Shown here: piece after piece, positions 21,776-23,837 of the stretch
Numbering within the stretch: position 1 is the first letter of the stretch
How the letters are laid out: each line of letters begins with the position of its first letter
Virus record (IMG/VR): IMGVR_UViG_3300031785_000030
Coordinates: 1 to 31,875 of that record
DNA: 31,875 nt
Strand: one strand, 5' to 3'
Source: a virus
The notes under the pieces: generated by a model
Database searches by the model: none
What the model was told of the DNA's origin: nothing
Seen by the model: only the letters and a program-made list of their open reading frames with translations
Translations under genes and position numbers: made by a program

Positions 21776-21850
21776 TACGAGCCTTTTTGAATATTATTGT
21801 CTGTGTAAGACCATGTCATGTGTTGAGTCTGCATTTTTTAGTCCCCCTAG

Positions 21851-22222
21851 TCAAGTCAAGTCTATGTTTACAGAGATATTACCCTGCACAAGTGTCATGT
21901 TCTTTTCTACTGGTTTGTACCCTGCTCTATCAAGTATGTCTTTACTTGCTTCAAGCTGTACGTACTCAGACTTAGCATTGCTTGCTAAGTCGAGTACTTT
22001 TCTTGAAGCAATCGTAGCATTTAGTCCAATGCTCTGTCTTATACATTGTTGCATATACTCTTGCACATGAGGCAAACGCAAAGTCTTACTGGCAGTCACT
22101 CTTCCTGATTCACCCTCAGCGTATCCAGACTTTGCACTTGCCTCTTTGACACTACAACCGAATGCTACGATCGTATCAACAAGTGTCTTTTGTTTCTTTG
22201 TAAGTCTATATTGTTTTAACAC
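21851..22222 (-). CDS. terS: terminase small subunit-like DNA-binding protein
   Basis: 123 residues if translated from GTG 22222. The frame continues open to 22369, but that extension runs through a GC-rich hairpin and AAGGGGGG lies 5 bases before the GTG, so the internal start is preferred. The protein reads MLKQYRLTKKQKTLVDTIVA, then the helix-turn-helix CSVKEASAKSGYAEG, a central helical oligomerisation region (LRLPHVQEYMQQCIRQSIGL) and AKSEYVQLEASKDILDRAGYKPVEK. This layout is that of Terminase_2-type small subunits, which recognise the packaging site. It is first in the late operon. Confidence 0.82.
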   Translation of the reverse strand: MLKQYRLTKKQKTLVDTIVAFGCSVKEASAKSGYAEGESGRVTASKTLRLPHVQEYMQQCIRQSIGLNATIASRKVLDLASNAKSEYVQLEASKDILDRAGYKPVEKNMTLVQGNISVNIDLT

Positions 22223-22243
22223 GAAAACCCCCCTTGTCCCCCC

Positions 22244-22273
22244 TTTATGGGACAAGTGGGAATGCCCTGTCAA
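22244..22273 (-). promoter_or_regulatory. candidate late promoter for small terminase, inside palindromes
   Basis: On the minus strand the consensus -35 TTGACA (22273-22268) is followed after 18 bases by CATAAA (22249-22244). Predicted initiation near 22237 would give a leader of about 15 bases carrying the AAGGGGGG ribosome site before the GTG start. The -35 box is exactly the loop of a 7-bp palindrome (AATGCCC / GGGCATT), and the -10 box lies in the loop and edge of a second 8-bp palindrome (CTTGTCCC / GGGACAAG, 22233-22256). These symmetric elements are natural operator candidates for a dimeric repressor or activator. Confidence 0.55.
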
Positions 22274-22287
22274 GGGCATTTTTTTTC
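22261..22287 (+). terminator. rho-independent terminator reading rightward
   Basis: On the plus strand AATGCCC (22261-22267) pairs with GGGCATT (22274-22280) around a 6-base loop and runs into eight T residues (22279-22286). This is a classic intrinsic terminator. It would stop transcription entering the control region from the left, for example antisense transcripts of the late arm, before the structured region begins. The same palindrome holds the -35 box of the opposing small-terminase promoter. Confidence 0.7.
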
Positions 22288-22339
22288 TTGTGTTAAAACA
22301 AAGACTTACAGGAGAAACACACACTTGTGCCTGATACGT

Positions 22340-22361
22340 GTTCTTTGTTCCGACAAAGAAC
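22340..22361 (+). repeat. perfect 9-bp hairpin with TCCG loop
   Basis: GTTCTTTGT (22340-22348) pairs perfectly with ACAAAGAAC (22353-22361) around TCCG, which as RNA is a UNCG-type tetraloop. It is the first stem of the structured region and is not followed by a T-tract, so it is not a terminator. Confidence 0.8.
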
Positions 22362-22372
22362 CAAACCAAGGT

Positions 22373-22520
22373 ATGTACAACCTTGTAGAACTACTCAAGC
22401 ACAAAGCATAATAAGGTCATGCCGAAGGGCATGGCTTTATTTATTTGTGCTTGACCAAATAAAAGCGACATTGCTCTGCAATGCCTTTTATTTGCTTAGT
22501 AGTTCTTGGAGGTTGTATAT
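22373..22520 (+). ncRNA. three-way junction domain
   Basis: The closing stem pairs 22373-22395 with 22498-22520 (outer part ATGTACAACCT, inner part AGAACTACT, with a 2-base mismatch between them and two G-T pairs). Branch one starts on the very next base: CAAGCACAAA (22396-22405) with TTTGTGCTTG (22444-22453), then a small internal loop, then a 14-bp arm (22410-22423 with 22428-22441, two G-T pairs) capped by the loop GAAG. Branch two pairs CAAATAAAAG (22456-22465) with CTTTTATTTG (22485-22494) and CATTGC with GCAATG inside. The compact nesting is far beyond chance hairpins and resembles a folded RNA domain. Confidence 0.75.
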
Positions 22521-22530
22521 TCTTTCCTAA

Positions 22531-22613
22531 GATTAGCTTCAAGGAGTATCTGAATCTCACTTAGAAGTGCCTTGTCTAACCAATCATCAACAGATACTGC
22601 CTTGAAACTGATC
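22531..22613 (+). ncRNA. long stem, about 21 bp with one bulge and one mismatch
   Basis: GATTAGCTTCAAGG (22531-22544) pairs with CCTTGAAACTGATC (22600-22613) with one C-A mismatch and one T-G pair. The stem continues after a bulged G (22599) with AGTATCTG (22545-22552) and CAGATACT (22591-22598). The 38-base terminal loop holds a small CACT/AGTG hairpin. The bulge and mismatch argue for an RNA structure or protein-binding site rather than a recent inverted duplication. Confidence 0.72.
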
Positions 22614-22629
22614 AGTCTTACAAATCTAA

Positions 22630-22687
22630 AGAAAGTTGGCTAACACCATTTGTTTGTATCTATCAAACAAATGCGAGACAACTTTCT
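22630..22687 (+). repeat. stacked hairpin, 9 + 10 bp
   Basis: AGAAAGTTG (22630-22638) pairs with CAACTTTCT (22679-22687), and inside CATTTGTTTG (22647-22656) pairs perfectly with CAAACAAATG (22664-22673) around a 7-base loop. GTTGGC (22635-22640) could alternatively pair with GCCAAC (22688-22693), so two mutually exclusive folds are possible. Confidence 0.75.
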
Positions 22688-22690
22688 GCC

Positions 22691-22768
22691 AACAATTCTT
22701 GTCACAAGTGCTAAGACTAGCAATCATATCCCTTTGAACATTTGGTACACCTTAACTCAAGAATTGTT
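22691..22768 (+). repeat. 11-bp stem enclosing a 5-bp hairpin
   Basis: AACAATTCTTG (22691-22701) pairs perfectly with CAAGAATTGTT (22758-22768). The interior holds TGCTA/TAGCA around AGAC (22709-22722). This is the last strong stem before the less structured part of the region. Confidence 0.7.
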
Positions 22769-22875
22769 AGTGGTAACATAGCGTCTCCTGCCAAGGATTG
22801 ACTCCTGTGCTTAAATAAGCATTAAACAAGTTTGTTCGCCTACTAAAAATTGTGAAAGCTCACTAAAAACACATC

Positions 22876-22887
22876 AAGTTTAAACTT
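22876..22887. promoter_or_regulatory. perfect 12-bp palindrome, candidate operator
   Basis: AAGTTTAAACTT is self-complementary over all 12 bases and too tight to form an RNA hairpin, so a dimeric DNA-binding protein site is more likely. It lies in the AT-rich, lightly structured middle of the control region. A second symmetric site, GGAATATTTCC, lies at 22909-22919. The XRE-type regulator at 25154-25384 is the only obvious repressor-like protein in the window; the link is inference. Confidence 0.35.
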
Positions 22888-22945
22888 AAATAATTCTAGC
22901 AGATGTAAGGAATATTTCCGATTTTCGTAATTTTCTAAGACCGTT

Positions 22946-22987
22946 TGTCTGCGTTAATCTGTTCACAACGAACTGATCATGCAGACA
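22946..22987 (+). repeat. hairpin TGTCTGC/GCAGACA
   Basis: TGTCTGC (22946-22952) pairs with GCAGACA (22981-22987), and GTTC (22961-22964) pairs with GAAC (22970-22973) at the tip. The intervening bases pair only partly. It opens the second cluster of stems in the region. Confidence 0.6.
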
Positions 22988-23010
22988 CTTTACCACTACT
23001 TTGCTTAGGA

Positions 23011-23070
23011 TCGCTAGGCGAACTGTGTGCGACCGGTGGAGTCGCACGCTTTATTTATTTCGCCAAGCGA
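23011..23070 (+). repeat. two-tier hairpin, 11 + 9 bp
   Basis: TCGCTAGGCGAA (23011-23022) pairs with TTCGCCAAGCGA (23059-23070) with one internal A-A mismatch. Inside, GTGTGCGAC (23025-23033) pairs with GTCGCACGC (23041-23049), including one T-G pair that is a wobble only in a plus-strand transcript. The stems are locally GC-rich against an AT-rich genome, as expected of a selected structure. Confidence 0.75.
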
Positions 23071-23077
23071 CAAGATG

Positions 23078-23156
23078 TAATACAAAAATAAGCGTGGTGA
23101 TTCGACAAGAACGCAACGAGTTGCGTGTCGAATCTACCACCTAGATTTTTGTATTA
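23078..23156 (+). ncRNA. extended 31-bp stacked hairpin
   Basis: Four stacked perfect stems: TAATACAAAAAT (23078-23089) with ATTTTTGTATTA (23145-23156); GTGGT (23094-23098) with ACCAC (23136-23140); GATTCGAC (23099-23106) with GTCGAATC (23127-23134); and ACGCAA (23111-23116) with TTGCGT (23121-23126) capped by CGAG. They are separated by small internal loops and a single bulge. No T-tract follows, so termination is unlikely. This is the longest continuous secondary structure in the window and lies about 70 bases before the first early gene. Confidence 0.8.
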
Positions 23157-23174
23157 TCCAGTAAAGTTGTGGTT

Positions 23175-23204
23175 TTGTGTCAGCATGGTCGTTGTGACCA
23201 TATT
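23175..23204 (+). promoter_or_regulatory. weak candidate early promoter with hairpin in the spacer
   Basis: TTGTGT (23175-23180) is followed after 18 bases by CATATT (23199-23204). Matches to consensus are modest. Initiation near 23212 would leave a short leader carrying the ACGGAG ribosome site before ATG 23227, the same short-leader design seen at the two better promoter candidates. The spacer contains the palindrome ATGGTC/GACCAT (23185-23201), a possible operator. Confidence 0.25.
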
Positions 23205-23226
23205 AACTTAACAAACGGAGAAAATT

Positions 23227-23664
23227 ATGAAAATCAAAAATATTACATCTACTGAATTATTTAAGTTGAAACTCGCTGTGGTGACCTTCCACAATGGCGA
23301 ACAAAATGCTTATTTAAGGGAGTCAATAGCAGGTGACGCTTGTTACTCATCTAACAATTCTTTAGAGTTTAAGGAGAACCAAATGTCAGATCAAAGGGCT
23401 AAGATCGCTAGTCTAACCCCTTGTGAGGGACAAGAAGTTGTTGACAAAAAGTTGGCATTTGCTGTTGATATCTACAGAAAAATGGAACTTGAGTTAGCCG
23501 AACTTACTGTTAGATTTGAGACTGATAAGGCAGTTTACAAGGCAGTAACTGATGAAGATTGGAAGCCAAGAGCAAAGACTTCTAAGCAAGATGTTTCTCA
23601 GATACTCAATGAAGCTGCAGCAATCTTAGGTAAGAATTACAAGCCTATCCAAGAAACTATCTAA
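23227..23664 (+). CDS. first early protein, unknown function
   Basis: 145 residues from ATG 23227, preceded by ACGGAG. The N-terminal 50 residues (MKIKNITSTELFKLKLAVVT, then YLRESIAGDACYSSNNSLEF) differ in style from the rest. From residue 53 (MSDQRAKIASLTPCEGQEVV) it is helical and charged, with VDIYRKMELELAELTVRFET and ILNEAAAILGKNYKPIQ. I do not recognise a family. It stands alone: a strong terminator follows at once, so it is a single-gene unit placed first in the early arm, a usual place for host-takeover or regulatory proteins. That role is inference only. Confidence 0.7.
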   Translation: MKIKNITSTELFKLKLAVVTFHNGEQNAYLRESIAGDACYSSNNSLEFKENQMSDQRAKIASLTPCEGQEVVDKKLAFAVDIYRKMELELAELTVRFETDKAVYKAVTDEDWKPRAKTSKQDVSQILNEAAAILGKNYKPIQETI

Positions 23665-23672
23665 CCTAATAA

Positions 23673-23700
23673 AAGGGCAGAGCAATCTGTCCTTTTTTTC
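23673..23700 (+). terminator. rho-independent terminator after first early gene
   Basis: AGGGCAGA pairs with TCTGTCCT (one G-T pair) around the loop GCAA, followed directly by seven T residues (23693-23699). It starts within 10 bases of the stop codon. The G-T pair is a wobble only in plus-strand RNA, so it is oriented to stop the rightward transcript. Confidence 0.85.
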
Positions 23701-23701
23701 T

Positions 23702-23778
23702 GTCAACCACGGTGGCTTTGTACTTGCTTATTGCACTAATCCTCAACTCCCCTTGATTATCAAAGTCAGGTGGTTGAC
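23702..23778 (+). repeat. inverted repeat in the gap before the second early unit
   Basis: GTCAACCAC (23702-23710) pairs perfectly with GTGGTTGAC (23770-23778), and CTTTG (23716-23720) with CAAAG (23761-23765). It begins directly after the terminator T-tract. It could be a regulatory RNA element or operator for the downstream operon; no clear promoter is visible. Confidence 0.55.
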
Positions 23779-23837
23779 CCAAACATCAGGCTGTAGATTT
23801 GTATATTTGCAGTAAACACAATCGAAAGGAAAACAAT

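Follow-up and report, generated by a model that had tools for sequence, protein, structure and literature searches.

The window analysed here, by which we mean the whole stretch of DNA studied, is a 31,875-base virus record whose kin are marine phages, with Pelagibacter phage Hodr EXVC031P being the nearest cultured relative in a comparison of terminase small subunit (TerS) proteins. As noted in the preliminary description of this DNA, its genes are tightly packed and leave a single long gap. This gap, at positions 22223 to 23226, measures 1,004 bases, with the runner-up measuring 173, and is flanked by the leftward terS gene and by the rightward first early gene, here referred to as g145 (Table 1). 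In most relatives, a leftward promoter of the form TTGACA-N17/18-(C/T)A(T/C)AAA is found at a distance of about 50 bases from the start of terS, and Hodr has TTGACA-N17-TATACT 93 bases from that start. Since this late promoter is located between terS and the rod-like element described below, the late mRNA should not carry the element. A plus-strand "terminator" at 22258 to 22283 overlaps the -35 box of this conserved promoter. It is of note that an inverted repeat surrounds the promoter, takes in the region of the terS start codon and co-varies between genomes (in the related locus L025, for instance, as ctgAtttaac/gttaaaTcag). The window phage has recombination genes. A search of the window for tRNA and tmRNA genes found none, while a tRNA gene is present in the related locus L041 (2995 to 3065, minus strand; Rfam tRNA, 63.7 bits).

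Table 1. Features of the terS to g145 interval (positions in the window)
Feature	Position	Strand	Support or remarks
terS, terminase small subunit gene, conserved left neighbour; GTG start at 22222	21851..22222	-	Terminase_2, E 2.5e-5; phrog_2538, E 1e-12
Inverted repeat around the late promoter, 22199-22227 with 22285-22310	22198..22311	.	
Leftward promoter (late, conserved), TTGACA-N18-CATAAA; bounds the rod locus on the left	22244..22273	-	
Rod-base hairpin, loop UCCG	22340..22361	+	RNAfold
Further local rod-base hairpins: 22367-22385; 22395-22454 (inner 22410-22441); 22456-22494	22367..22494	+	
Left arm, non-coding inverted copy of the gene arm	22447..23011	+	Score 507, null 36
Head hairpin A with a U-rich tract after it; resembles an attenuator or terminator	23025..23059	+	
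Head hairpin B, the other limb of the fork	23077..23157	+	Kept in L014, L041, L043, L044, L045 and L061
Right arm: leader, ribosome site, whole gene and terminator	23156..23710	+	
Predicted Shine-Dalgarno sequence (CGGAG) and ATG, inside the rod	23215..23229	+	
First early gene (g145), 145-aa protein	23227..23664	+	
Predicted intrinsic terminator 3' of the gene, close to the right end of the rod	23671..23700	+	

The stretch from 22340 to 23201, described earlier as a non-coding region of nested stems, has a predicted folding energy of -301 kcal/mol on the plus strand and -289 kcal/mol on the minus strand (z about -12 on each), and none of 20 dinucleotide shuffles reached as low a value, which bears out a real, large and structured element. 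The nested stems are present as well and make up the base of a long rod and its forked head. The extent given earlier did not hold, as it halves the feature: the main partner of the left arm is the next gene, and this pairing had been missed because the gene arm lies outside those 860 bases. The element is thus not a free-standing non-coding RNA domain, since its pairing partner codes for a protein. A conserved overlapping reading frame, which had been named as evidence against a structured element, is present in one half only, with the partner arm being coding and the 860 bases themselves containing no such frame.

Between the two arms, 452 of 504 aligned positions are Watson-Crick pairs, and blast aligns the left arm with the gene arm at E values of 1e-76 to 1e-80. 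When both arms are folded jointly with RNAfold, 363 inter-arm pairs (363 to 406 across seven genomes) and -655 kcal/mol are predicted, as against -364 and -124 kcal/mol for the separate parts. The region between the arms is predicted to form a forked head, with hairpins at 23025 to 23049 and 23077 to 23157, the first of which is found in a GTG-stem-CGC form in most relatives. The mean predicted unpaired probability of the Shine-Dalgarno sequence and ATG is 0.00 with the left arm and 0.54 without it. At the far end of the gene, the terminator motif GGGCAGAG(C/A)AATCTGTCCTTTTTTT is kept in the seven genomes of the g145 type. Hairpins with NNCG loops, akin to that at the rod base, occur in loci L008, L013, L016, L036 and L040. 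Two shorter repeats were also seen: an exact 13-base repeat, GCTTTATTTATTT, lies at 22434 to 22446 and 23048 to 23060, each copy on the 3' side of a GC-rich plus-strand hairpin, and a short inverted repeat, TCAACCAC/GTGGTTGA, lies at 23702 to 23779, directly to the right of the rod, its left copy including a conserved minus-strand TTGACA with no recognizable -10 box.

Two trivial origins of the rod were rejected. The left arm is not a minus-strand pseudogene or second copy of the 145-aa gene, since 22340 to 23010 contains many stops in every frame and the copy is riddled with indels. Nor is the rod an assembly or amplification chimaera, since it is also present in loci L001 to L004, which come from separate samples, in diverged relatives and, in a short form, in Hodr.

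The frame of the gene within the right arm is free of indels in 10 relatives, with the diverged proteins being 55 to 62% identical. An AlphaFold2 model of the product (pLDDT 80.8) is all-helical with four helices. No match was obtained in Pfam, the fold search gave no significant match (phage T4 UvsY appeared only at an E value of about 1), and no relatives were found in the bacterial genomes and phage records searched. A C-terminal motif, Y..x(3-4)..G..[WFY].P, recurs in the first-gene products of the window, L013, L018, Hodr and others and suggests distant kinship or a shared function; profile comparison of g145 with the other first-gene families detected only this kind of weak C-terminal resemblance, which was not significant. 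In loci L082 and L083, a protein distantly homologous to the 145-aa product (32%) has its start codon under a short rod only, and gene-length pairing would hence be a later or a lost state.

The same architecture was found in six diverged genomes carrying g145, even though their left arms can often barely be aligned to one another. Against its own gene, a left arm scores 443 to 506, and against the genes of other clades 75 to 226, with a shuffled null of 27 ± 4. The left arm of the window scores 503 against the complement of its own gene and 105 against the orthologous left arm of L041. Among cells that distinguish two genes, a left arm is Watson-Crick complementary to its own gene in 85% and to the foreign gene in 6%. 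The pair maps are alignments fitted genome by genome; an artefact of aligning each left arm to its own gene was rejected both by a free alignment of every left arm with every gene arm and by controls in an independent group, A3, which does not carry the 145-aa gene. In this group, 27 of 129 pairs had changed on both sides, as compared with 10.2 ± 2.0 in shuffles (0 of 500 as high) and 0 to 2 in slid controls. Adjoining helix positions in L025, L028 and L030 have switched as G-C, T-A and C-G within near-constant flanks. How fast the element changes is shown by L014, whose flanks are 87 to 91% identical while its left arm and gene are 72 to 73% identical. Covariation among homologues, proposed earlier as a check, is therefore very strong, and the existence, size and co-evolution of the element are very secure.

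The wider occurrence of such rods was surveyed in 76 loci with enough sequence, comprising TerS relatives, the window and Hodr; many of these are near-duplicates, and they represent about ten cassette types. Rods were present in 57 of the loci, scoring 73 to 510 as against about 30 after shuffling (two shuffles per locus), and no clear rod was seen in the other 19. In all 57 rods, including that of the cultured phage Hodr, the right arm covers the start codon of whichever rightward gene comes first and in most cases extends 30 to 160 bases into that gene (in L042 the gene is truncated by the contig end); rods outside the window type are shorter or of equal length. In 19 of 20 cassettes, the Shine-Dalgarno sequence and start codon were predicted to be less accessible once the left arm was added. 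The first genes under the rods differ between loci and are not demonstrably homologous, and that of Hodr is annotated only as hypothetical in the record of the isolate. Burial of the start site is thus securely conserved as a property of the sequence, and a role in regulation may be what it reflects. Across loci L005 to L084, the interval from terS to the DUF932 gene is a hypervariable cassette site, and loci whose TerS proteins are 85 to 94% identical have differing first genes, usually each with its own rod. No clear rod covers the start codon in L008 to L012, L019, L035, L046, L047, L052, L053, L055 to L060, L081 and L084, and several of these relatives have multiple small palindromes instead.

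Judged from its sequence, the element looks like an extreme and undescribed self-silencing leader. We propose, with a probability of roughly 0.45, that the rightward early mRNA carries it as a fold-back leader, by which the first early gene is silenced in cis. The rightward early transcript would begin near the left end of the element and pass through the left arm and the forked head with its attenuator-like hairpin before reaching the ribosome site and the gene. The emerging right arm would then zip onto the left arm, so that the Shine-Dalgarno sequence and the start codon become buried and, in the phage type of the window, the whole gene and its terminator are zipped as well. Translation would be possible only from RNA without the left arm, arising by an internal start or by processing, or from RNA in which the rod is held open. 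If terminated at the head hairpin, the left arm could in addition serve as a trans-acting antisense RNA. Complementarity would be maintained largely by templated copying between the arms, through template switching or conversion, with selection preserving the bulges and certain mismatches. As expected of a fold-back leader, upstream sequence is predicted to be able to pair with the Shine-Dalgarno sequence and start codon. Pairing over the full gene counts against a cis leader, as it exceeds what is needed to mask a ribosome site. Repression, the function of the protein, the copying mechanism and plus-strand transcription are steps that we infer. A broader reading, somewhat less probable, would amount to a new kind of gene organization in phages, namely, that the complete transcript of the gene is a self-complementary rod whose full-length non-coding mirror is copied time and again from the gene or along with it, and that the shorter versions with unrelated genes make up a hypervariable cassette family at one locus of marine phages.

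The best placed of the alternatives, though an unlikely one, is that the left arm and head form a separate, terminated RNA that pairs in trans with an mRNA from a downstream promoter, after the manner of type I toxin-antitoxin loci, with the protein being a harmful early product. Such an RNA could end at the attenuator-like hairpin between the arms, which has a U-rich tail on the plus strand; every rod has a left arm complementary to its ribosome site and to the start of its gene, and the first-gene products are small and have no assigned function. However, a promoter sought between the head and the gene was not found, g145 is not toxin-like by Pfam or by fold, and adjacency in cis would make intramolecular zipping quicker than pairing in trans.

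That the functional molecule is instead a structured RNA of the minus strand, running leftward and antisense to the first early gene, seems slightly less probable, and it is here that the evidence on strand conflicts. The minus strand folds better by 36 to 88 kcal/mol in 7 of 7 genomes, and usually better in the other relatives too. On the plus strand, mismatches in the rod are A-C in 120 cells and G-U in 24 (seven genomes; 85 to 19 in other relatives), so that the preliminary view of G-T pairs favouring a plus-strand transcript holds for some local hairpins and not for the long rod. The same mismatches read on the minus strand are of tolerated kinds, G-U, U-U and G-A, with C-C almost absent; a minus-strand RNA would leave such a spectrum. 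Base skew, as estimated from the composition of 4-fold sites, nevertheless covers about 1.5 to 2.2 of the 5-fold mismatch bias. If copying resets accidental mismatches, those that remain may have been selected as unpaired, which would make the spectrum compatible with a plus-strand RNA. The unpaired bases of natural RNAs are rich in A and G and poor in C, and the bulge bases of both arms have this composition on the plus strand (A, 0.42 to 0.44; G, 0.24 to 0.28; C, 0.09 to 0.10); on the minus strand they would be rich in U and C and poor in G. Also favouring the plus strand are the end of the rod near the plus-strand terminator and the U-tail of head hairpin A (mean of 5.2 U in the 10-base tail, as against 2.7 on the minus strand), a conserved feature that would be pointless in a minus-strand RNA. 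Furthermore, a minus-strand RNA needs a promoter within or behind the first gene, where none is conserved, and leaves unexplained why the start codon is always in the right arm. On the plus strand, no consistent rightward sigma-70 promoter was found, and the start site of the transcript was not located.

It is also rather improbable that the structure is largely neutral, an old inverted duplication whose arms are kept alike by template switching (quasipalindrome correction) and whose folding is not under selection. Hairpins are documented to be created and maintained by template switching, which has been proposed as a route to one-step double changes in RNA hairpins (PMC8794818). The arms within one genome are more alike than orthologous arms, as template switching or conversion would leave them. 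The double changes have a transition-to-transversion ratio of 604:802, close to that of the gene itself, and one-sided G-U states are nearly absent, which fits one-step copying from arm to arm, bypassing the usual G-U route. The repeated matched changes suggest that DNA copying itself preserves complementarity, and the hairpin at the late promoter co-varies too. However, N-side bulges of 4 to 8 bases recur at identical sites in four lineages (8 to 10 shared, about 2 expected; p at the floor of a circular-shift test), and all four have nine mismatched columns in common (0.09 expected), even as the pairs around them turn over. The g145 type is known from only about four independent lineages, and the shared bulges and mismatches may in part be ancestral. 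Pure copying would wipe out both, yet both persist, and the arms would thus be kept complementary by templated copying together with selection for an interrupted rod with fixed bulges. A neutral origin is also hard to reconcile with the recurrence of rods over different genes, always covering the start codon, and with the retention of 1 kb of otherwise non-coding DNA by a compact phage.

More improbable still is that the structure acts as DNA, in the form of a cruciform or single strand serving as a replication origin, primosome site or packaging site. The very low number of wobble pairs on either strand (0.75% on the plus strand and 3.7% on the minus strand), the position between the early and late arms next to terS, and the recombination genes of the phage would be in keeping with this. 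However, a function as DNA gives no reason to expect a start codon in the arm every time, or an arm that reaches the end of the gene and the terminator; rods and first genes differ among phages with about 90% identical TerS, which argues against a TerS-recognized pac site, and nothing was found to support the primosome origin or terminase packaging site entertained earlier. Membership in or kinship with the large ornate phage RNAs GOLLD and ROOL, suggested by size, phage setting and many stems, can be practically dismissed, since the element is an unbranched rod with a fork, not a multi-branched fold, and has a coding gene as its partner arm.

If the fold-back leader is correct, an unrecognized control switch operates at the first early gene of ocean phages, and since a cultured phage is among the carriers, this switch is directly testable. 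If the broader reading also holds, a protein gene can stay paired from end to end with a mirror copy that co-evolves with it. The dozens of double-sided changes provide a natural system in which to measure whether stems change via G-U intermediates under selection or by one-step templated copying.

A literature search for pelagiphage hairpins, Hodr and phage-encoded rods returned nothing relevant, and the element itself is undescribed there. On the features tested, it is not GOLLD, ROOL or an obelisk. With the covariance models of Rfam, no structured-RNA family other than the L041 tRNA was matched at the gathering score in the window or nine related loci, and GOLLD, ROOL and HEARO, whose models had been proposed as a check, were absent among the matches to 21800 to 23700 up to an E value of 10. 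GOLLD occurs in phages and has been seen in a marine metagenome (PMC12286853). The likeness consists of a large, structured RNA-like region in a phage; GOLLD forms a homo-oligomeric RNA nanocage, and the element described here has another architecture and overlaps a gene. The delta-virus rod includes a protein gene. Obelisks are rods common in the ocean, with the protein Oblin-1 having a beta-sheet clasp (PMC11922315). Like both of these, the element is a rod of about 1 to 1.4 kb with one protein gene in an arm, but it is part of double-stranded DNA phage genomes, between terS and the early genes, including the complete genome of an isolate, and is not a free circular RNA of about 1 kb. No ribozyme family was matched in Rfam in the window, or in 21800 to 23700 up to an E value of 10, with ribozymes being known in a subset of obelisks only. 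The g145 protein has no Pfam match, and its model consists of four helices without the beta-sheet clasp of Oblin-1. In the mitochondria of Nematomorpha, perfect palindromes of up to 284 bp have both arms coding (PMC6649704); these are likewise long inverted repeats imposed on protein-coding sequence, whereas the rod is imperfect, has one non-coding arm and covers a start site. Template-switch hairpins resemble the rod in their instant two-sided changes without G-U intermediates, but they concern short stems of RNA genes (PMC8794818), whereas here the arms are of gene length, one is coding and the bulges persist. Type I toxin-antitoxin systems pair a small toxic, usually membrane, peptide with an antisense RNA; g145 encodes a 145-aa protein predicted to be helical and soluble-looking. 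The closest likeness in mode of action would be to transposase mRNAs, among which those of IS10 and IS50 are controlled by fold-back of read-through hairpins, with stems of tens of bases. The ISPpu9 transposase mRNA has fold-back control in its 5'-UTR, together with small RNAs (PMC8450116). In these systems, translation is reduced by upstream sequence that base-pairs with the ribosome site, and small RNAs may open or close the fold. Unlike such leaders, the putatively repressive rods described here have arms of about 110 to 560 bases that enter the gene or span it entirely, and that evolve in step with it.
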